From Alkalihalobacillus sp. CinArs1 (GTDB taxonomy: Bacteria > Bacillota > Bacilli > Bacillales > Guptibacillaceae): a stretch of DNA of 64,000 nt. The DNA lies in contig NZ_CANDOB010000002.1 of NCBI RefSeq assembly GCF_947387515.1, positions 496,001-560,000 of the forward strand, given 5' to 3'. Of the stretch, positions 2,094 to 40,289 are shown in pieces. The translations under genes and the position numbers were made by a program. Each line of letters opens with the position of its first letter. Within the stretch, counting starts at the first letter, position 1. Below the pieces are notes generated by a model. The model had not been told where the DNA came from. It did no database searches and worked only from the letters and a program-made list of their open reading frames with translations.

Positions 2094-2158
2094 TGTCAAA
2101 AGTATTTGACATTAAATGTAGCTTATACTAATATTATAAATGTAAAAAGTATTTGACA
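2094..2158 (+). promoter_or_regulatory. Promoter with twin TGTCAAA-N4-TTTGACA operators
   Basis: TTGACA (2106-2111) and TAATAT (2129-2134) are 17 bases apart. A perfect palindrome TGTCAAA-AGTA-TTTGACA (2094-2111) overlaps the -35 box, and a near-copy TGTAAAA-AGTA-TTTGACA (2141-2158) lies 47 bases further on, in the leader. The same pair, at 46-base spacing, precedes the paralogous regulator at 39.7 kb, so these are probably autoregulatory sites of the HTH protein. Confidence 0.75.
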
Positions 2159-2174
2159 GGTGAGTGGTGGTTAA

Positions 2175-2381
2175 TTGGAAAATAATATTAAAGAGCTACG
2201 TCAAAAAAGAAAGTTGTCTCAGAAAGATCTTGCAGAGTCTTGTTCCGTTTCGCGCCAAACGATTAATGCGATAGAGAACAATAAATATGATCCAACGCTT
2301 CAGCTTGCCTTTCAATTAGCGTCTGTGTTGGAGACGCCCCTTGATGAGTTGTTCATTTATGAAAACAGTAGTAAGGAGTGA
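2175..2381 (+). CDS. Small XRE-family HTH regulator
   Basis: 68-residue Cro/CI-type DNA-binding protein made almost only of the HTH domain: NIKELRQKRKLSQKDLAESC...SRQTINAIENNKYDPTL. It belongs to the YozG-like group of stand-alone regulators usually paired with a small membrane protein. TTG start after AGGTGAGTGGTGG. It overlaps nothing and is followed immediately by the membrane partner (2389). Likely represses its own promoter through the twin operators upstream. Its closest relative in the window is the protein at 39776, nearly identical over the HTH. Confidence 0.9.
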   Translation: MENNIKELRQKRKLSQKDLAESCSVSRQTINAIENNKYDPTLQLAFQLASVLETPLDELFIYENSSKE

Positions 2382-2388
2382 AACATTT

Positions 2389-2700
2389 TTGGAATTCTTA
2401 GTAATAACAATTGCAGTAGTATTCGTAGTCTTAACAATTGGATTGATAACGGGTAAGAAAGAGTTCGGGGTTGGACCAAATGACGATGAAAGGAAGAGAG
2501 CGATTAAGAATAAATCGATCACTCAAAGTTGGATGACATTGGTGTTATTTTTACTTATTAATTTTTTAACTGATCTGTTTAATGTGAATAAAGAAGTTGC
2601 CGAGCTAAGTTCTGCAAACCTGGAATTATTCTACATAGTAATTGCGATTCTTTCATATTTACTCTTTTATGTTATCAACTCAAAGAAAATGAGCGCTTGA
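2389..2700 (+). CDS. Small membrane protein partner of the XRE regulator
   Basis: About 103 residues from TTG 2389, chosen because GGAG (AAGGAGTG) lies just upstream and because the paralogue at 39978 starts at the equivalent position. It has a hydrophobic N-terminal helix, a charged segment with PNDDERKRAIKNKSITQSW, then two further hydrophobic helices and a conserved end INSKKMSA. No enzymatic motif. The pairing with an HTH protein is conserved at both loci, suggesting a functional module, possibly membrane sensing that affects the regulator. Function unknown. Confidence 0.75.
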   Translation: MEFLVITIAVVFVVLTIGLITGKKEFGVGPNDDERKRAIKNKSITQSWMTLVLFLLINFLTDLFNVNKEVAELSSANLELFYIVIAILSYLLFYVINSKKMSA

Positions 2701-2752
2701 TGTTAGTTTGTTAAACACTTTAGATAGAGAACTGTAAATTAAAGTTCTAGTA

Positions 2753-2780
2753 GTCGAGGATAATTTTCCTCGGCTTTTTT
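2753..2780 (+). terminator. Intrinsic terminator
   Basis: GTCGAGGA (2753-2760) pairs with TCCTCGGC (2767-2774), followed by six T. It ends the HTH/membrane unit. Confidence 0.8.
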
Positions 2781-2851
2781 GTTTTGGGTCTAAAGTAACC
2801 GAGTGTAAAAACGTTCTAAAATCTTCTGTAACTATAGTTATACAAAAAATG

Positions 2852-2886
2852 TACAAATTTGTAGTTATTTGGAATCAGTTTACAAT
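2852..2886 (+). promoter_or_regulatory. Candidate promoter of the bacteriocin-like cluster
   Basis: TTGTAG (2859-2864) and TACAAT (2881-2886) are spaced 16 bases. The perfect palindrome TACAAATTTGTA (2852-2863) overlaps the -35 box and could be an operator. The remaining part of 2887-3007 is AT-rich leader with no further recognisable site. Weak consensus, so tentative. Confidence 0.4.
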
Positions 2887-3007
2887 AATAGTAAAAATCT
2901 TATGGAATTCAGTAAGTTTGCTGTGCTAGGATTTGAAACGTAATACAAAATTGGAATTAACAACCAGAATATTAATTAGTTTTTACTAGAATACGGAGGA
3001 AGATCAA

Positions 3008-3544
3008 ATGATTAATTGGTTAACGGGTGACAACCGTTCTACATACTATATCTTTACGCTTACATTCATTACGTGCTTGGGTACAATGGTATATTCTGTT
3101 TTGAATGAAATGGGACCAACCGAACTAGAGTTAGTTAATAATCTTTTGGAAAAAGACGGCGCACAGGCCTATGCCCTTGTTGGTGTAGTCATAGCATTTA
3201 CTCTATTGTTCATGTTAATTCAAATTTTCTTTAGTAGTGTGTTCTTACATATTATAGCGAAGTTTATCTTTCGGCTTCCGATCTCCTTTAAATCGTTTCA
3301 TCGAGTTTACTTGATTTTTCTTATTATCATTTCTTTAAGCATTTTTTGGCAAGTACTCTTTTATAACAATCAATATGAAATCTTTTTGCTAGCTACTAAT
3401 CCTTTGGTTTTAATAGGAATGCTTGTACTCTTCCTATTGCTAAGAGGGGTAGTTAATATAAACCAGGTTAAACCTCTTCTCTTTACTTTATTTTGTTATG
3501 TGAATTTTATTATCTTTACATCATTATCTTTAGGGGGAAATTAA
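3008..3544 (+). CDS. Multi-pass membrane protein of the bacteriocin-like cluster
   Basis: 178 residues, strongly hydrophobic, about five predicted membrane helices, no catalytic motif. The general pattern resembles Yip1-like membrane proteins. It is the first gene of the cluster, starts after ACGGAGGAAG and ends one base before the putative precursor gene, so the two are cotranscribed. In bacteriocin loci such a gene often serves immunity or maturation; that is inference from position only. Confidence 0.7.
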   Translation: MINWLTGDNRSTYYIFTLTFITCLGTMVYSVLNEMGPTELELVNNLLEKDGAQAYALVGVVIAFTLLFMLIQIFFSSVFLHIIAKFIFRLPISFKSFHRVYLIFLIIISLSIFWQVLFYNNQYEIFLLATNPLVLIGMLVLFLLLRGVVNINQVKPLLFTLFCYVNFIIFTSLSLGGN

Positions 3545-3545
3545 A

Positions 3546-3872
3546 ATGACAAACGTATTGAACATGCAAGCAATCAACAAAAAAGATCTTCTTGGGACAG
3601 TTGCTCTATTAGCAACTATGGTATTAATCGCTGTGAGTGCACAGATGGGTGTTGCTTTCGATATACATAAGGTAGTACCGGGTATTTCAACTGCAGCTGC
3701 ATTAGTAGGTTTAAAGAAAGCATATAGTGCTTACAAAGCTGGTAAGGGTGCTAAGAAAGCAATTGCTGTTATCTTCGGTTGGAACGTAATTGGACTTCTT
3801 GTAAGCTTAATCGGCGACTGGGCAATTGGATATTTACTAGAACACCATATTGAAAAATTGGCTAGCTACTAA
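3546..3872 (+). CDS. Putative circular-bacteriocin precursor peptide
   Basis: 108-residue hydrophobic peptide. Residues 1-35 look like a leader: polar start with KKD at 12-14, then a hydrophobic helix (LLGTVALLATMVLIAVSA). The remainder (about 36-108) contains amphipathic and hydrophobic helices separated by a lysine patch KAGKGAKKA (64-72) and ends in an aromatic residue, LASY. Known circular bacteriocins (enterocin AS-48, circularin A, amylocyclicin families) are 58-70 residue helical bundles with a basic patch, joined head to tail at a hydrophobic or aromatic C-terminus. The neighbours (large membrane protein, SpoIIM-like protein, ABC ATPase) fit. Cleavage site is not determinable here. 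Alternatively a small unrelated membrane protein. Confidence 0.6.
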   Translation: MTNVLNMQAINKKDLLGTVALLATMVLIAVSAQMGVAFDIHKVVPGISTAAALVGLKKAYSAYKAGKGAKKAIAVIFGWNVIGLLVSLIGDWAIGYLLEHHIEKLASY

Positions 3873-3937
3873 GTAATAGAGACTATTAAGTAAAGAGAAG
3901 GGTTTAGCATAGATTAATTTTATTTTGAAAGAGTTGA

Positions 3938-5449
3938 ATGATCGTGAGGAATTCAATCAACATATTGTTAGTACAAACAATCCTAAAAACAATGTTCAAT
4001 CAGTTTCTATATAGCAGTAACGAAGTTGGAGTAGAGTCAGGTTTTACTCGAAAACTAATCACTTCTTTAAGATCATACGTTAGAATTTCACTCACCATCA
4101 TCTACTTGTTTTGGTTTATTATCGCATTTTTGTTTCAAATTTTCTTTCATTACATGAATTTAGATTCACAACAATTAAATATTGTCATTTTATTATTTGG
4201 GATTTTATCTCTGTGCTTTTTCCTAGGTTATACGGTGAACGATGATATTAGAAAATACGCTATGAACAATACATTTTCAATCTATCAAAAGAAAAGGGTT
4301 ATTCTAGCAAATGAATATTTAAGCGCAGGAATTATATGGATATTTATCTTTTTGATGTCGTTCCCTTTTGTTGTGGGTCAACCGCTTTTAAATGGATTGA
4401 ATGGAATGGTCTTTATCCTCCAATTCTTGTTGGTAGTCCTTATTGCGGGTTACATGGTTGGGTTTCTGAAATTTTTCTTTTATACACTTCAGTTTACATA
4501 TACGAGTGAGGTGTGGAGAAGAGGGGGAGAAGTACTTTACCTATTACTCTCTATCTTCATCTTCATTAAGAGAGAAATCATTTTTGAAAGTATCTTATTC
4601 TTTATTAAAACAGTGTTGGAAGGAAACTTAGCGCGATGGATCATTCAGTTTTCACCTAGTAAATTTAGTTTGTATGAACTTAAAATCGACATGTTATGGA
4701 TTGGTACCTTGGGGGGAGTAGTGTTACTTTGTGTATGGCTTTCCGTTCTCTTTGCAAAAATTCTAGTACGTGAAAAGAACAGTACCACAAAAGAGAAGAA
4801 ATCTGTACCGCACCAAGTGGTCAGTATTCATATGAATAAAGTAAGACAATATGGGCTTATTAATATGAATTTCTTAGTAACGTTTGTCGGGACGTTGGCA
4901 ATATCCGTCTATATAAAAAAGGAAGGACTTAACATAGCTAGCGGAACGATGTTTCCTGCGTATTTGTTGGTAAGTTTATACCTTAGTAAGAAATCAACTC
5001 AGCTTGTATTGTTTTGTAAGAGAAATCATAGTTCGATCTTGAATACGACGATGTTGTTTCTTATTTATCCAGGATTGCAATTCTTGGTGATCTACTTGAT
5101 CCTGTCTCCTTCATTAGGGAAAATTAACAATCACCTTACCTTTCTTTTCGGTGGATTATTGCTCATCGCTAGTATCTTATTTCTTTACACAGCGAGCACA
5201 TACCGATTTGAATACTATTTTGAAGCTGGATTACTAGAGAAGCTCGTACAATTCTTGATTATCCTATTTTTGATCCTTACGATCGCTCTCGAAGTTTTAT
5301 TGGTGTATGCAGGTATTACTTCGTTTGTTTATCTATTTGTTCTACCGTTGCTCATCTTAGCAGCGCTCTACTACATTCTTTTAACGAATTTGAAGCATAT
5401 CAGGAGTTTTATGTATGAAAGAACTGCAATTAACAAAGACCATGTTTAA
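3938..5449 (+). CDS. Large multi-pass membrane protein, CirB/AS-48B-like position
   Basis: 503 residues with roughly 12 hydrophobic helices spread along the length and no nucleotide-binding or protease motif. In circularin and AS-48 loci a membrane protein of 500-580 residues follows the precursor gene and is needed for maturation or secretion; size and position match. ATG 3938 is preceded by GAAAGAG. Its 3' end overlaps the next gene by 35 bases, implying coupled translation. Assignment rests on context and topology, not on a recognised motif. Confidence 0.65.
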   Translation: MIVRNSINILLVQTILKTMFNQFLYSSNEVGVESGFTRKLITSLRSYVRISLTIIYLFWFIIAFLFQIFFHYMNLDSQQLNIVILLFGILSLCFFLGYTVNDDIRKYAMNNTFSIYQKKRVILANEYLSAGIIWIFIFLMSFPFVVGQPLLNGLNGMVFILQFLLVVLIAGYMVGFLKFFFYTLQFTYTSEVWRRGGEVLYLLLSIFIFIKREIIFESILFFIKTVLEGNLARWIIQFSPSKFSLYELKIDMLWIGTLGGVVLLCVWLSVLFAKILVREKNSTTKEKKSVPHQVVSIHMNKVRQYGLINMNFLVTFVGTLAISVYIKKEGLNIASGTMFPAYLLVSLYLSKKSTQLVLFCKRNHSSILNTTMLFLIYPGLQFLVIYLILSPSLGKINNHLTFLFGGLLLIASILFLYTASTYRFEYYFEAGLLEKLVQFLIILFLILTIALEVLLVYAGITSFVYLFVLPLLILAALYYILLTNLKHIRSFMYERTAINKDHV

Positions 5450-5987
5450 TCTATTTTACAACAGATTACTCATTAGTTACTTTTTGATTCTAACGATGGT
5501 GTTCGTATTAGTATTTATGTACACAACTAACATAACGCTACTACCACCTGCTGAATTAATAAAAAAAGTAAGCTTTACAGAGATTTTTATCCAGAATATC
5601 TCTTCTTCAACGATTATTTTATTGACCGGGATTATTTCGTTTGGTGCAGTATCTTCAGGAATAATTATCTATAATTTGTATCTATTATCAATAGCAATTC
5701 ATTCTGCTTACGTTCATAGTGGGTCGGTATTCTATTCTTTATTTGTCATTCTTACTCATGGAATTATCGAAATCGTTGCTATCGTTCTTAGTTTCTATCT
5801 TTCAACAATCAGTTTAAGATTAGCTATTAACAAGCTATACAATAAGAGAATTTTCCATGTGCAGAGTTTAAATCAGTTTCTACAACTATTGATTGTTATG
5901 GTTGTGTCGTTAGGCATAGCTGCTTTATTTGAGTCACAGATCACACCGATCGTATTAGAAATTATATTGGAGAGTAAAGCAAAATGA
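5415..5987 (+). CDS. SpoIIM/DUF95-like membrane protein
   Basis: 190 residues, four to five membrane helices. The central part (GAVSSGIIIYNLYLL...THGIIEIVAIVLS, then LSTISLRLA) has the shape of the SpoIIM/DUF95 family: a glycine-rich helix, then H-G-x-x-E in a helix start. DUF95 proteins are a hallmark of circular bacteriocin clusters. AGGAG lies 9 bases before the ATG, inside the preceding gene. The 3' end overlaps the ATPase by ATGA, so these genes form one translationally coupled unit. A sporulation role is unlikely given the context. Confidence 0.7.
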   Translation: MKELQLTKTMFNLFYNRLLISYFLILTMVFVLVFMYTTNITLLPPAELIKKVSFTEIFIQNISSSTIILLTGIISFGAVSSGIIIYNLYLLSIAIHSAYVHSGSVFYSLFVILTHGIIEIVAIVLSFYLSTISLRLAINKLYNKRIFHVQSLNQFLQLLIVMVVSLGIAALFESQITPIVLEIILESKAK

Positions 5988-6649
5988 TTAAAGTAAAGGG
6001 ACTTACAAAATCGTATCAAAAGAAAGTGCTATCAGAAGTTGACTTTGAATTAGAGTACGGAAAAATATATTGTCTGCTTGGGAGAAATGGCGTGGGAAAG
6101 ACTACCCTCATGAAAATCATGGCAGGAATGCTCGAATATGATGCTGGTGACATACAAGTGGTTGATGATGAAAACCATTCAGAGTGTTTTCACTATGTAA
6201 CTGAGCCACCTGTTTTTCTTGATTACTTGTCGGGTTTTGACAATATTAAGTTTGTTTCCCAATTACATAATTTATCTTTAACAGACATGCAATTAAAGAA
6301 GTTTATACAAAATCAGGGTTTAGAACAATTCGCTGATGATTTAGTGGTGAATTATTCGCAAGGAATGAAACATCAATTGTCTTTAGCGATTGCATTCCTA
6401 ATCAACCCTTACGCATTGTTATTAGATGAACCGCTTGTATCTCTGGATCCGGTTAATATCGTTACCATGCAAAAAAAATTAAAAGAATTTGCTACACAAG
6501 GCAACATTGTATTTCTATCCACACACATGCTGCCCATTGCAAATAAATTGGCGGATGAAATACTAATTTTAAAAGATGGAACGGTTAATATCATACCGAA
6601 TGATCTCTCCGAAGAAGAGCTAGAAAAGCTTGTTTTAAAGAAAATATAA
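5984..6649 (+). CDS. ABC transporter ATP-binding protein of the bacteriocin-like cluster
   Basis: 221-residue ABC ATPase: Walker A GRNGVGKT (34-41), signature YSQGMKHQ, Walker B LLLDEP, H-loop STHM. The single-domain size matches CirD-type ATPases that energise export or self-protection. It overlaps the DUF95 gene by 4 bases and is followed after 14 bases by the secreted protein gene. Membrane partner is presumably the 503- and/or 190-residue protein. Confidence 0.9.
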   Translation: MIKVKGLTKSYQKKVLSEVDFELEYGKIYCLLGRNGVGKTTLMKIMAGMLEYDAGDIQVVDDENHSECFHYVTEPPVFLDYLSGFDNIKFVSQLHNLSLTDMQLKKFIQNQGLEQFADDLVVNYSQGMKHQLSLAIAFLINPYALLLDEPLVSLDPVNIVTMQKKLKEFATQGNIVFLSTHMLPIANKLADEILILKDGTVNIIPNDLSEEELEKLVLKKI

Positions 6650-6663
6650 TAGGAGTGAGAAAT

Positions 6664-7041
6664 ATGAAACAACTATCGATTTTATTGGTACTGGTTTTAA
6701 GTATGACCCTTCCGGTATTGACTGGAGCCTCATCCATTCAGTATGGAGCTGGCGAATGGGATGATAAGGGTACTGACACATTTAAAACCAAAAGTAAGGT
6801 GATTTATTCTGGGGGAGGAAACTTTAAAGCTTGTATGATTGGTGGTAGTGGTGTTCACGAAGTAACACTATGGGAAGCTGACAGTAATCCTGATGATAAA
6901 CTAGCATATGGATTGCTTTCTCCTGGAACATGCAAAGTCTGGTATGGATTGTCAGATGAGATTGATGGAAAGAATAATAAAGCAGAACTTTACTTAACAA
7001 AATCAGGAGGCAATGCAATCACTGTCGAGTTTGAAGATTAA
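6664..7041 (+). CDS. Secreted two-cysteine protein of unknown function
   Basis: 125 residues from ATG 6664, selected because AGGAGTGA lies directly upstream; a GTG at 6655 would place the Shine-Dalgarno inside the gene. Residues 1 to about 24 form a signal peptide (LSILLVLVLSMTLPVLTGASS). The mature part is acidic, rich in Gly, Ser and Thr, with beta-strand-like pattern and two cysteines (KACMI and GTCKVW) that could form a disulfide. Last gene before the terminator, so part of the bacteriocin-like unit. No family recognised. It could be a second secreted effector or a binding/immunity protein. Confidence 0.75.
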   Translation: MKQLSILLVLVLSMTLPVLTGASSIQYGAGEWDDKGTDTFKTKSKVIYSGGGNFKACMIGGSGVHEVTLWEADSNPDDKLAYGLLSPGTCKVWYGLSDEIDGKNNKAELYLTKSGGNAITVEFED

Positions 7042-7080
7042 ACGTAATACTCTCAAAGTTATAGCAGTTGAATTTTTTAT

Positions 7081-7115
7081 AAAAGATTGAGGCGCAATTG
7101 CCTTAATCTTTTTTG
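7081..7115 (+). terminator. Terminator of the bacteriocin-like cluster
   Basis: AAAAGATTGAGGC (7081-7093) pairs with GCCTTAATCTTTT (with a G-T pair), followed by more T. Confidence 0.8.
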
Positions 7116-7146
7116 ATCATGCATCAATTTCTACTATTCAATTTTG

Positions 7147-8855: not shown

Positions 8856-8901
8856 ATTTATGGTACGATGATTAAAGATAAAAATGGACGAGAGGGTACC
8901 T

Positions 8902-9810
8902 ATGAACACAACTTTAAAAATAACGCTAATTGTTATCTCAAGTGTTCTGACACTCACGCTGCTACTCGTAGGAGCTGCCGTTTTCTTCATTCATAGTTTC
9001 ATAGAAGAGAGTGCTGGTGAGACGGTGTCCTACTATCATGCTGTTGAAGCGATCGTTACGTTAAACTTCGATGGGGAGTTGGAGAAGGAAGCAAAGCAGT
9101 CGAGGGACGAACTGGTAGATAGGGACGTCACGATTTATGTAGAAGGTGAAGATATGGATCTCTTTCCACTCGTAAAAGATACACTCAAGCAAGCGAGAGC
9201 GACAACGAAGGCGTTAATCGGTGGAGTGGATGAGAGAAACGTCGACCTTATTCTGTTTACGAATGAAGAAGAATTTAATGGATTGAGTGAATTGAGTCAC
9301 GTGGAAGGTTTCTATGATCGCTTTTCGATGATGATTGGTGTGCTCGTTGATGATAAACAGGGCGTAGTAGAAGGTGATGAAAAAGCGCTTTATCATTTTC
9401 AACGTAAGATTTTGCACGAATACACGCATTATGCGTTAGATCGTAAAGTCGAAGTGACGAACGCTGGGCTGCATTTCTATCCACTTTGGTTCCAAGAGGG
9501 CGTAGCGGATTATGTAGCGAACAAAGGAAGTATCATAGAAACGTGGGACTATGAACTCGTCCCGTTCGATCAGCTCATCACGCACGAACAGTGGGAGGAA
9601 GCAGGGGCAAGAGAAATGACGGATGTGTACAGGCAGAGCTACTTCACCGTTACGTACGTGATTGAAGAAAATGGGGAAGAAGTGATAAAGGAGATCATCG
9701 ACGCGACGAGTGAGTCGGGTGATTTTGAACAAAGCTTCGAAAACATAACTGGATTGTCTTATGGTGATTTATTTGAAAAGGTAAAAACGGATAGAAGCGT
9801 TCATGAATAA
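8902..9810 (+). CDS. Membrane-anchored gluzincin metallopeptidase (peptidase MA-like)
   Basis: 302 residues from ATG 8902, which has GAGAGGG 7 bases upstream; ATG 8884 has none. An N-terminal membrane helix (ITLIVISSVLTLTLLLVGAAVFF) anchors an extracytoplasmic domain carrying HEYTH (zinc ligands and catalytic Glu) and, 30 residues on, FQEGVADYVA supplying the third ligand Glu. This is the peptidase MA/collagenase-like arrangement. Substrate unknown. Monocistronic. Confidence 0.85.
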   Translation: MNTTLKITLIVISSVLTLTLLLVGAAVFFIHSFIEESAGETVSYYHAVEAIVTLNFDGELEKEAKQSRDELVDRDVTIYVEGEDMDLFPLVKDTLKQARATTKALIGGVDERNVDLILFTNEEEFNGLSELSHVEGFYDRFSMMIGVLVDDKQGVVEGDEKALYHFQRKILHEYTHYALDRKVEVTNAGLHFYPLWFQEGVADYVANKGSIIETWDYELVPFDQLITHEQWEEAGAREMTDVYRQSYFTVTYVIEENGEEVIKEIIDATSESGDFEQSFENITGLSYGDLFEKVKTDRSVHE

Positions 9811-38909: not shown

Positions 38910-39644
38910 ATGATAGTTTTACAGGTTATTTCTATGACGAGTTTGGTATTCCTCGCTTTACTGAAGTTCGACGTCGTTTCAGTTGGGGTAAGCGATAATA
39001 TTATTCATTATTTATTCAATGCGAGCGTGATGTTAACGATCTTCAGCATGATTGTACCGCTCGTCTCTTATGCGAAGTTGAAAAGAGCGGGCGTGAAGGA
39101 AGAACGTTTTCTAGATGATATCCTTCAGAAAATCGATCCAACGAATAAGACGGAAATTTTTGTTTCGTCGAAGGTTCTGAAGAATAACGCCGCAGCGCTT
39201 TATCGAAAAAATGAGATGGTGATTGTAGTTGGAGAAAAGCTTTTACATACACTTGATGAAAAGCAGTTAACGTTTTTGGTCGCTCATGAATACTACCATG
39301 TAAAACAGAACCATCTAATTAAGAATGCTCTCTCGTTTATTTTTGTTCTGTCAGGTGTGCCAATCGCTATACTAATCATCACGTCGAATGTAGGATCAAT
39401 GATTCCAATCATTCCTCTTGTGATCTTTGCATTTGTTACTTATATCTCCTGTTTCATGATGCACTTTGTTTTCTCTAGGAAGCGAGAATTCGAAGCTGAT
39501 CAATTTGGGAGGTCATTCGTAAAAGCGACTGATGCTAGCGAAACGTTAGAGAAGCTAAAAGAACACAAGTTAGTGGATGAAAAAAGCTTCAGTTTGTTTG
39601 CGACGCACCCTTCGATAGAGAAGAGGATAAGCAAGGTAAGCTAA
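38910..39644 (+). CDS. M48-family membrane metallopeptidase (HtpX-like)
   Basis: 244 residues. Two N-terminal helices, catalytic HEYYH at 126-130 with the third zinc ligand in FEADQFGRSF, and two helices in between. Short member of the M48 family; a role in membrane protein quality control is the general expectation. AGGTGGAGGA upstream of ATG 38910. Stop overlaps the palindromic repeat that follows. Confidence 0.9.
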   Translation: MIVLQVISMTSLVFLALLKFDVVSVGVSDNIIHYLFNASVMLTIFSMIVPLVSYAKLKRAGVKEERFLDDILQKIDPTNKTEIFVSSKVLKNNAAALYRKNEMVIVVGEKLLHTLDEKQLTFLVAHEYYHVKQNHLIKNALSFIFVLSGVPIAILIITSNVGSMIPIIPLVIFAFVTYISCFMMHFVFSRKREFEADQFGRSFVKATDASETLEKLKEHKLVDEKSFSLFATHPSIEKRISKVS

Positions 39645-39691
39645 TTCGACAGGTACCAGGCACCTCGACAGGTGCCTGGTACCTGTCGAAT
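39644..39691. repeat. Perfect GACAGGTACCAGGCACC palindrome
   Basis: Two 22-base arms (39644-39665 and 39670-39691) around CGAC are exact reverse complements. It abuts the M48 stop codon and the first operator of the next unit, so it probably also terminates or insulates transcription. Confidence 0.85.
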
Positions 39692-39758
39692 GTGTGTCAA
39701 AACATTTTGACACACAGTTGGGATTATATTACAGTGTAGGTGTAAAGAGTATTTGACA
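39691..39758 (+). promoter_or_regulatory. Promoter with twin operators, second copy
   Basis: TTGACA (39707-39712) and TACAGT (39730-39735), 17 bases apart. TGTCAAA-ACAT-TTTGACA (39695-39712), extended to a 12-base-arm palindrome, overlaps the -35 box, and TGTAAAG-AGTA-TTTGACA (39741-39758) lies 46 bases on. Same layout as at 2094-2158. Confidence 0.75.
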
Positions 39759-39775
39759 TATGAGTGGTGATGAAT

Positions 39776-39976
39776 GTGGAAAATAACATCAAGTTGCTTC
39801 GCCAGAAAAGAAACCTCTCGCAGAAAGATCTCGCAACGGCTTGTTCCGTTTCGCGGCAAACGATCAATGCCATCGAGAACAATAAGTATGATCCTACGCT
39901 TCATCTTGCGTTTGAATTGGCTTCTGTTCTCGAAACCCCTCTAGAAGAGTTATTTAACTACAAAAGGAGTGAATGA
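39776..39976 (+). CDS. Small XRE-family HTH regulator, second copy
   Basis: 66 residues from GTG 39776, aligned with the TTG start of the paralogue at 2175; an ATG at 39770 is a possible alternative. NIKLLRQKRNLSQKDLATACSVSRQTINAIENNKYDPTLHLAF is nearly identical to the first copy. Probably binds the same twin operators, so cross-regulation between loci is likely. Confidence 0.88.
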   Translation: MENNIKLLRQKRNLSQKDLATACSVSRQTINAIENNKYDPTLHLAFELASVLETPLEELFNYKRSE

Positions 39977-39977
39977 G

Positions 39978-40289
39978 ATGGAGTTACTAATCCAAGGTAT
40001 CGTGGTTGTCATCTGGATATTCTTAGCAGGATTCCTAACTGGCAAACGAGACTATCCATTTGGCAAGAGTGACGATGAGAGGAAGCGTGAAATCAAGAAG
40101 CGCTCGATTACACAGAGTTGGTTAACGGTATTGCTGTTTCTCGTCATCAACGTTTTATATGGTTTCTTTAATATCCGTGGTGGTGCCACAGAACTAAGTA
40201 ATACAAGTTTAGAGCTATTCTACATAGGAATTGCAGTTCTTTCGTACATGATGTTTTATGGGATTAATTCGAAGAAGATGAGTGCGTAG
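39978..40289 (+). CDS. Small membrane protein partner, second copy
   Basis: 103 residues from ATG 39978 (AAAGGAGTG upstream). Hydrophobic helix, charged GKSDDERKREIKKRSITQSWLT, two helices and the identical end INSKKMSA as the protein at 2389. Function unknown. Confidence 0.8.
   Translation: MELLIQGIVVVIWIFLAGFLTGKRDYPFGKSDDERKREIKKRSITQSWLTVLLFLVINVLYGFFNIRGGATELSNTSLELFYIGIAVLSYMMFYGINSKKMSA

Follow-up and report, generated by a model that had tools for sequence, protein, structure and literature searches.

The locus described here raises the question of whether a gene cluster can belong to the circular bacteriocins when its precursor peptide matches none of those known. The cluster lies in a stretch of 64,000 nucleotides from Alkalihalobacillus sp. 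CinArs1 (contig NZ_CANDOB010000002.1, positions 496,001 to 560,000 of the forward strand; hereafter the window), in which an initial annotation had described six tightly packed plus-strand genes at 3008-7041 as a circular-bacteriocin-like cluster. On the evidence given below, it is probably a mobile cluster, under its own regulation, that makes and exports a ribosomally synthesised antibacterial peptide, most likely cyclised head to tail. The best reading of the gene set and sequence features, from which both circularity and killing are predicted, is a new family of bacteriocin precursors whose products are probably circular. As to the original description, the machinery was recovered (DUF95 protein, ATPase, and gene order), and the peptide and the 503-residue membrane protein gave no match to known circular families. 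All six open reading frames (ORFs) were present, as follows.

3008..3544, plus strand: protein of 178 residues with about six transmembrane (TM) segments; candidate immunity protein or export accessory, no Pfam family
3546..3872, plus strand: precursor peptide of 108 residues; predicted leader 1-42 and predicted core 43-108
3938..5449, plus strand: polytopic membrane protein of 503 residues; candidate membrane component for transport or maturation, no Pfam or NCBIfam family
5415..5987, plus strand: SpoIIM/DUF95 membrane protein of 190 residues; Pfam PF01944, 6.8e-14
5984..6649, plus strand: ABC transporter ATPase of 221 residues; ABC_tran, 5.3e-22
6655..7041, plus strand: secreted protein of 128 residues, accessory; the ATG at 6664 is the likelier start

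The spacings between consecutive genes (1, 65, -35, -4, and 5 nt) suggest that the six form one operon. The unit in fact begins upstream of the reported extent, with a regulator gene, a small membrane protein gene, and palindromes. The region had been called richer in AT than its neighbours, and this was borne out by a GC content of 33.7% for 2094-7041 vs 45.2% for the remainder of the window; of all 4.9-kb intervals in the window, the one lowest in GC begins at 1801 (33.6%), and the lowest elsewhere has 39.6%. Searches of Pfam and NCBIfam returned no family above the cut-off for the proteins of 178, 108, 503, and 128 residues.

Relatives and recurrence of the gene block

When the peptide was searched by tblastn against 72,556 plasmid records, a single match was obtained, NZ_CP156675.1 of Pseudalkalibacillus hwajinpoensis (91.7%), and this record (locus L001; contig 2 of genome G007) repeats the entire unit in order, from the regulator through the secreted protein. 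The peptide is present in two of the 14 genomes of the genus. The 503-residue protein matched G144 and G297 among 299 genomes of the order; its profile added G740 and G679 among 398 genomes of the class and found the window's own locus only among 398 genomes of the phylum. Among 397 order genomes, the peptide profile gave matches at E < 1e-5 in four, namely the window's own, G007, G144, and G297. Three sets of matches were dismissed as chance, namely 30 of the 34 genomes matched by the peptide profile (E at least 0.001, many inside large frames or across stops), a second peptide match in the window's own genome (E 0.109), and a match of the 503-residue protein in G250 (E 0.007). No relatives were found in viral contigs, and none were found by a scan of genome contigs with the peptide; the scan with the 503-residue profile gave one match, in Tuberibacillus (G297, Tuberibacillus calidus DSM 17572).

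The order of TM protein, peptide, large membrane protein, DUF95 protein, and ATPase was found in all six loci of the family, that is, in five other genomes of the class besides the window, with protein identities that fall to about 20%. Four of these loci have all five genes intact, and the remaining two are decayed. In G297 the peptide frame stops at residue 77 and the remainder lies in another frame; in G679 (L134) the large membrane protein gene is split in two by an ORF on the opposite strand (transposase-like by eye), and additional small ORFs precede the ATPase gene. The initial annotation had allowed that homologues of the peptide might occur only outside bacteriocin contexts; the clear homologues, from the five other loci, all lie within the same gene block. 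Because the order recurs in five other genomes and strong purifying selection acts on the peptide core, the gene block is more than a chance arrangement.

The first position is occupied in all six loci by a protein of 164-178 residues with 5-6 TM segments (pI 7.8 in the window and 7.0-9.8 across the loci), for which a clear sequence relationship was obtained in five; the protein of L134 reaches only 3.4 bits. The secreted protein was present in two of the six loci, the last gene of L001 being 53% identical, and tblastn detected no counterpart at E<=1 in L069, L070, L133, and L134. Nine plasmid records (Bacillaceae, Planococcus, and Streptomyces) matched it, eight besides that of P. hwajinpoensis, and no annotated DUF95 gene was seen nearby in the six of these eight that were viewed, where the gene tables are incomplete. 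As a core part of the cluster the protein was rejected, because it is in two loci only and has relatives elsewhere without annotated DUF95 neighbours; it looks accessory, and it belongs to a wider family of small secreted proteins.

No paper was found that treats Pseudalkalibacillus together with bacteriocin; for Tuberibacillus calidus with bacteriocin a single review was returned. In the portions of the main texts available, Tuberibacillus is unnamed in PMC8534725, PMC7132975, and PMC5695211, and hwajinpoensis is unnamed in PMC7132975, PMC5695211, and PMC10931772; the supplements may list them. PMC5695211, in its available part, used the SpoIIM domain for mining.

The precursor peptide and its core

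The five intact precursors (103-108 residues) align over their full length, the other four being 29-92% identical to that of the window. A variable hydrophobic N-terminus, a VPGxSxAAA-like stretch of small residues, a basic patch, and a hydrophobic segment are common to them, and the leader and lysine patch noticed in the window peptide are accordingly found throughout the family as a hydrophobic leader and a central polybasic patch (KKAYSAYKAGKGAKK in the window). The C-terminus reads LA[SFN][YW], and the last residue is Tyr or Trp in all five intact precursors, and likewise in the sixth when its downstream frame is read.

Comparison of the window with P. hwajinpoensis gave, for residues 37-108, 30 silent codon changes and one replacement change in 72 codons (NG86 nonsynonymous distance, dN, 0.040; synonymous distance, dS, 1.35); in residues 1-36, silent changes numbered 14 and replacement changes 8. 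The seven other genes compared between the two are 47-79% identical, with dS saturated or > 3. The counts show that purifying selection on the peptide core is strong, and a leader/core boundary near 36-43 fits them. The core was set at Val43-Tyr108 (66 residues, pI 9.6, predicted cyclic mass about 6908 Da), following a putative leader of 42 residues, because all five cores then begin with two hydrophobic residues and comprise 65-66 residues; the predicted leaders are 38-42 residues long and the predicted cores have a pI of 9.4-10.1 in all five. Such a precursor would fall within the range of circular bacteriocins, in which a leader of 2-48 residues precedes a hydrophobic core of about 58-70 residues.

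A near-invariant core beside diverging partners would also be explained by a secreted signalling or self-regulation peptide that is no killer. With such a role would agree the identity of 71 of the 72 residues between two species in which the five partner proteins are 47-66% identical, and the presence of a regulator and operator-like repeats in the cluster itself. However, distant members of the family clearly differ (29-44% identity over the whole peptide), and the hydrophobic, cationic composition of the 66 residues and the large membrane complex would fit a membrane-active peptide better; a signalling peptide is considered very unlikely.

Comparison with known circular bacteriocins

In the available portions of the literature, circular clusters are marked by a precursor, a SpoIIM/DUF95 protein, and a transporter or ATPase (PMC8659200, PMC8534725), and circular bacteriocins are described with leaders of 2-48 residues and with aromatic ends in most groups, subgroup ii excepted (PMC8534725, PMC8659200, PMC7132975, PMC5695211, PMC6131525, PMC10028692, PMC11580447, PMC10931772). 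As controls, 397 order genomes were searched for PF09221 (Bacteriocin_IId: AS-48, circularin, and uberolysin); 28 matched, 24 of them above the cut-off, and 20 neighbourhoods were fetched and 15 layouts viewed. The window's own genome gave no PF09221 match at E<=0.01. A PF09221 precursor with a DUF95 gene (L061) was found on another contig of G144, a genome that carries a window-type cluster. A further DUF95 locus, L136 (G015, 2672-6511), has a 103-residue candidate precursor that ends in YAIAW, is silent in the PF09221 genome search, and by profile comparison resembles three PF09221 groups weakly (11-37%).

The initial annotation had likened the gene order to circularin and AS-48 loci. The order agreed, since in the circularin A- and AS-48-like loci L049 and L062 (assigned by eye) the peptide is likewise followed by a membrane protein of 550-600 residues, DUF95, and ATPase, with one additional gene before the ATPase in L062, and the precursors, like those of the window family, end in an aromatic residue (Trp) and have a basic core. 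Sequence relationship was not found for either the precursor or the large membrane protein, and their polybasic patch is C-terminal. The uberolysin-like loci L051 and L052 (subfamily by eye) also resemble the window cluster in that a 190-residue protein with 5-6 TM segments directly precedes a precursor of 111-115 residues with a hydrophobic leader, and a membrane protein of about 550 residues directly follows it, with ATPase and DUF95; the last two are in reverse order relative to the window family, and the precursors (3.8%, E 0.011) and large membrane proteins are unmatched. Gassericin A and plantacyclin B21AG (subgroup ii; L141, L142) share with the window cluster the long hydrophobic leader, DUF95, and ATPase, and their peptides, like that of the window, are not clearly related to those of PF09221, but they end in Ala and have no large membrane protein. 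Leaderless bacteriocins (aureocin A53, lacticin Q) are basic helical peptides with membrane-protein neighbours, as here, but have neither DUF95 nor an N-terminal extension, according to the parts available of PMC11580447 and PMC6131525; a leaderless product was ruled out by the DUF95 protein and by the variable hydrophobic first 36 residues vs the near-invariant remainder.

A linear secreted bacteriocin or peptide toxin, with its leader cleaved or kept, could be exported by the same DUF95 protein and ATPase without ring closure. In favour of this, the precursor is unrelated in sequence to the circular families, and the best NCBIfam model of the ATPase is a lantibiotic-protection subunit (galliderm_ABC), at 136 bits far below the cut-off of 310. 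DUF95, however, is described as the protein that defines the circular class and as lacking in leaderless bacteriocins (PMC11580447, in the part available), and the aromatic last residue, which circularin A maturation needs (PMC10028692, in the part available), is kept in six divergent peptides. A linear product is therefore regarded as unlikely.

The 190-residue protein had been proposed as SpoIIM/DUF95-like, and in the profile check it passed the PF01944 cut-off; DUF95 is present in all six family loci. The family DUF95 profile was compared with 17 DUF95 proteins from PF09221 loci (7.4e-23) and with small subsets of such loci (5.8e-13 to 3.3e-5), the gassericin-type set (3e-5), five long DUF95 proteins of another kind (4.3e-9), and 23 sporulation SpoIIM proteins (2.3e-4), and by this comparison the family DUF95 is closer to the DUF95 of PF09221 loci than to sporulation SpoIIM. 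When the DUF95 profile was rebuilt without L135 and L136, and with controls from 28 of 30 loci (L112 and L120 left out), the outcome was the same. With the sporulation SpoIIM profile (n=23) the scores of the family members were -1.7 to 15.7 bits, as compared with 278-333 bits for the proteins in the profile itself; because of these low scores and a separate strong SpoIIM elsewhere in the genome (G000:C1:126932, 4.5e-32), the cluster DUF95 was rejected as a sporulation SpoIIM orthologue. The separate SpoIIM also bears on the idea of a membrane-protein complex related to transport or sporulation, in which the 108-residue protein would be a structural subunit and no product would be secreted. The hydrophobicity of the peptide, the two other TM proteins, and DUF95, and the occurrence of DUF95 in non-bacteriocin settings too, would suit such a complex, but the patchy presence in the genus, the low GC, and the one plasmid copy argue against a house-keeping role, and the idea is highly improbable.

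In the DUF95 tree (40 rows, including L135 and L136, which are not PF09221-verified, and leaving out 18 of the 30 sporulation and long DUF95 loci, among them the genome's own SpoIIM), the family formed one clade (94/83), and its place beside two DUF95 proteins of PF09221 loci was weak (83/51). In the ATPase tree (27 rows) the six family ATPases formed one clade (99/96) and grouped weakly (78/77) with the ATPases of PF09221 loci, away from the MacB type; gassericin-type ATPases fell on the other side of the tree.

A number of results weigh against a circular bacteriocin. The peptide had been described as no obvious copy of a known bacteriocin, and indeed nothing above the cut-off was obtained from Pfam, NCBIfam, or the Protein Data Bank (PDB); matches to FlhB (0.086, one of five members), lactococcin 972 (0.054), and lipoprotein signal peptidase (0.0042; the latter two in two of five members each) were far below the cut-off and taken as chance. 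The profile check proposed for the peptide against circular-bacteriocin families likewise gave no match: none of seven PF09221 subfamily profiles (grouped by eye) matched the window peptide family (0.2-3.8%, best E 0.011). Because these subfamilies recognise each other in 20 of 21 profile-profile pairs (29-98.7%), the window family, by sequence, is not a member of PF09221. Nor was a resemblance to subgroup ii seen when the family was compared by hhalign with the gassericin A and plantacyclin precursors (0.4%). Since those precursors, annotated as cyclic, likewise reach no more than 12% with six PF09221 groups, the PF09221 comparison is no test of circularity, and a cyclised product is compatible with its outcome. 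The 503-residue protein did not match its counterparts from known loci (nine sets, at most 0.8%); the known sets mostly fail one another too (27 of 36 pairs at <=3%). No cyclisation enzyme was recognised in the cluster, as in known clusters. The near-absence of change in the core is unlike the diversification often assumed for arms-race toxins.

DUF95 also occurs outside bacteriocin loci. With the profile of DUF95 from PF09221 loci, long DUF95 proteins score 66-75 bits and the family 46-77 bits; because the long proteins score as high, DUF95 alone does not prove a bacteriocin. The long proteins also match the family better than do the gassericin-type and one short DUF95 set from PF09221 loci (both about 3e-5), and the one long-DUF95 neighbourhood viewed contained no bacteriocin but, by eye, genes resembling RDD, DUF58, and MoxR.

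The polybasic patch, finally, is central (about 37-51 residues before the C-terminus), vs near the C-terminus in PF09221 peptides. With its patch so placed, the peptide might be a natural permutant, made possible by cyclisation, in which the known ring is opened at another point. In a rotation test, doubled cores were scored against a profile built from 16 PF09221-locus cores, one of which lies below the PF09221 cut-off; shuffles did as well or better in 282 (window), 254 (L001), 161 (L069), and 102 (L134) of 300 cases, and in 2 of 300 for L133, at only 2.3 bits. A rotated match to PF09221 cores received no support from this test, so that the linear and rotated comparisons both fail. A third class of head-to-tail cyclised peptides, with no sequence relationship to either known group and a different point of ring closure, is considered quite unlikely.

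Putative regulation, genomic site, and proposed mode of action

The features found outside the six genes were as follows.

2094-2111 and 2141-2158, plus strand: two palindromic operator-like repeats, flanking a promoter-like site (TTGACA at 2106, TAATAT to 2134)
2175..2381, plus strand: helix-turn-helix (HTH) regulator of Cro/CI type, 68 residues; Pfam HTH_3, 1.4e-18; 83% identity to the L001 counterpart
2341..2700, plus strand: small membrane protein paired with the regulator; start unsure, near 2380; L001 counterpart 60% identical
7081..7112, plus strand: hairpin resembling a terminator, downstream of the last gene; z -2.34 for the fold of 7035-7125, with 6 of 200 shuffles as good

No family match above the cut-off (Pfam, NCBIfam) was obtained for the small membrane protein. 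The palindromes upstream of the HTH gene, TGTCAAAAGTATTTGACA and TGTAAAAAGTATTTGACA, are near-identical and 47 nt apart, and their pattern (<=1 mismatch) was found five times in 64 kb vs 0.27 expected: at 2094 and 2141, as a pair at 39695/39741, and once within a gene at 5443. Promoter patterns overall in the window were not above chance. The regulator, small membrane gene, and operator pair all have counterparts in the P. hwajinpoensis copy, where two palindromes with equal 47-nt spacing precede the counterpart gene (0.18 expected; two reached by 5 of 200 shuffles). An attenuator hairpin after the peptide gene was sought and not found in the window or L001; it is strong in L133 (z -5.06), and is not general to the family.

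A second copy of the regulator pair lies at 38910-40289 of the window (HTH 83% and membrane protein 55% identical to the pair of the cluster) and has the paired operators of the cluster too, the pattern recurring at 39695 and 39741. The adjoining gene has an HEYYH motif and resembles a zinc peptidase by eye; strong matches to it were found in three of the 14 genus genomes (G000, G002, and G007), including both cluster carriers, and the copy in G007 is split over two frames. It is a possible co-regulated maturation peptidase. Near the cluster, at 8884-9810, a 308-residue protein with an HEYTH motif may by eye be a membrane-anchored zinc peptidase.

In G002, the genome whose MFS gene is closest (98%), DNA identity to the window is 93% over the flanking hydrolase region and 92% over the MFS region, and the cluster site is occupied by a 554-residue ORF (L085, 8439-10103) with repeated HTH-like and homing-endonuclease-like stretches by eye. 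In G011 (L066, 7587-8641) and in G010, two species of the genus, four nearly identical PF09221 precursors are arrayed, and the MFS gene that flanks the window cluster lies 5-7 kb from the precursors of the array, about 5.5 kb in G011 and 5.6 kb in G010. The neighbourhood appears to take up bacteriocin-type clusters.

For a circular bacteriocin of this family the following mode of action is proposed. The HTH regulator would control its own operon at the paired operators, and the hydrophobic leader would insert the 108-residue precursor. DUF95, probably with the 503-residue membrane protein, may serve leader removal near residue 42 and the joining of Val43 to the aromatic C-terminus, Tyr108. The ATPase would drive export of the 66-residue cationic ring, the 178-residue protein and the transporter would give the producer immunity, and the product would permeabilise the membranes of related bacteria.

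Leader loss and ring closure in circular bacteriocins are an open question, and the literature, in its available parts, names no agreed enzyme. The cluster keeps DUF95 and the ATPase together with an unrelated precursor and large membrane protein, so the parts shared with known systems are DUF95, the ATPase, and the aromatic C-terminus, and their comparison offers a direct way to test at which place the ring is closed. Mining that starts from known precursors would overlook such peptides, and therefore the class may be under-counted; the peptide family, unlike those known, may be a new class of ring-shaped antibacterial peptides.

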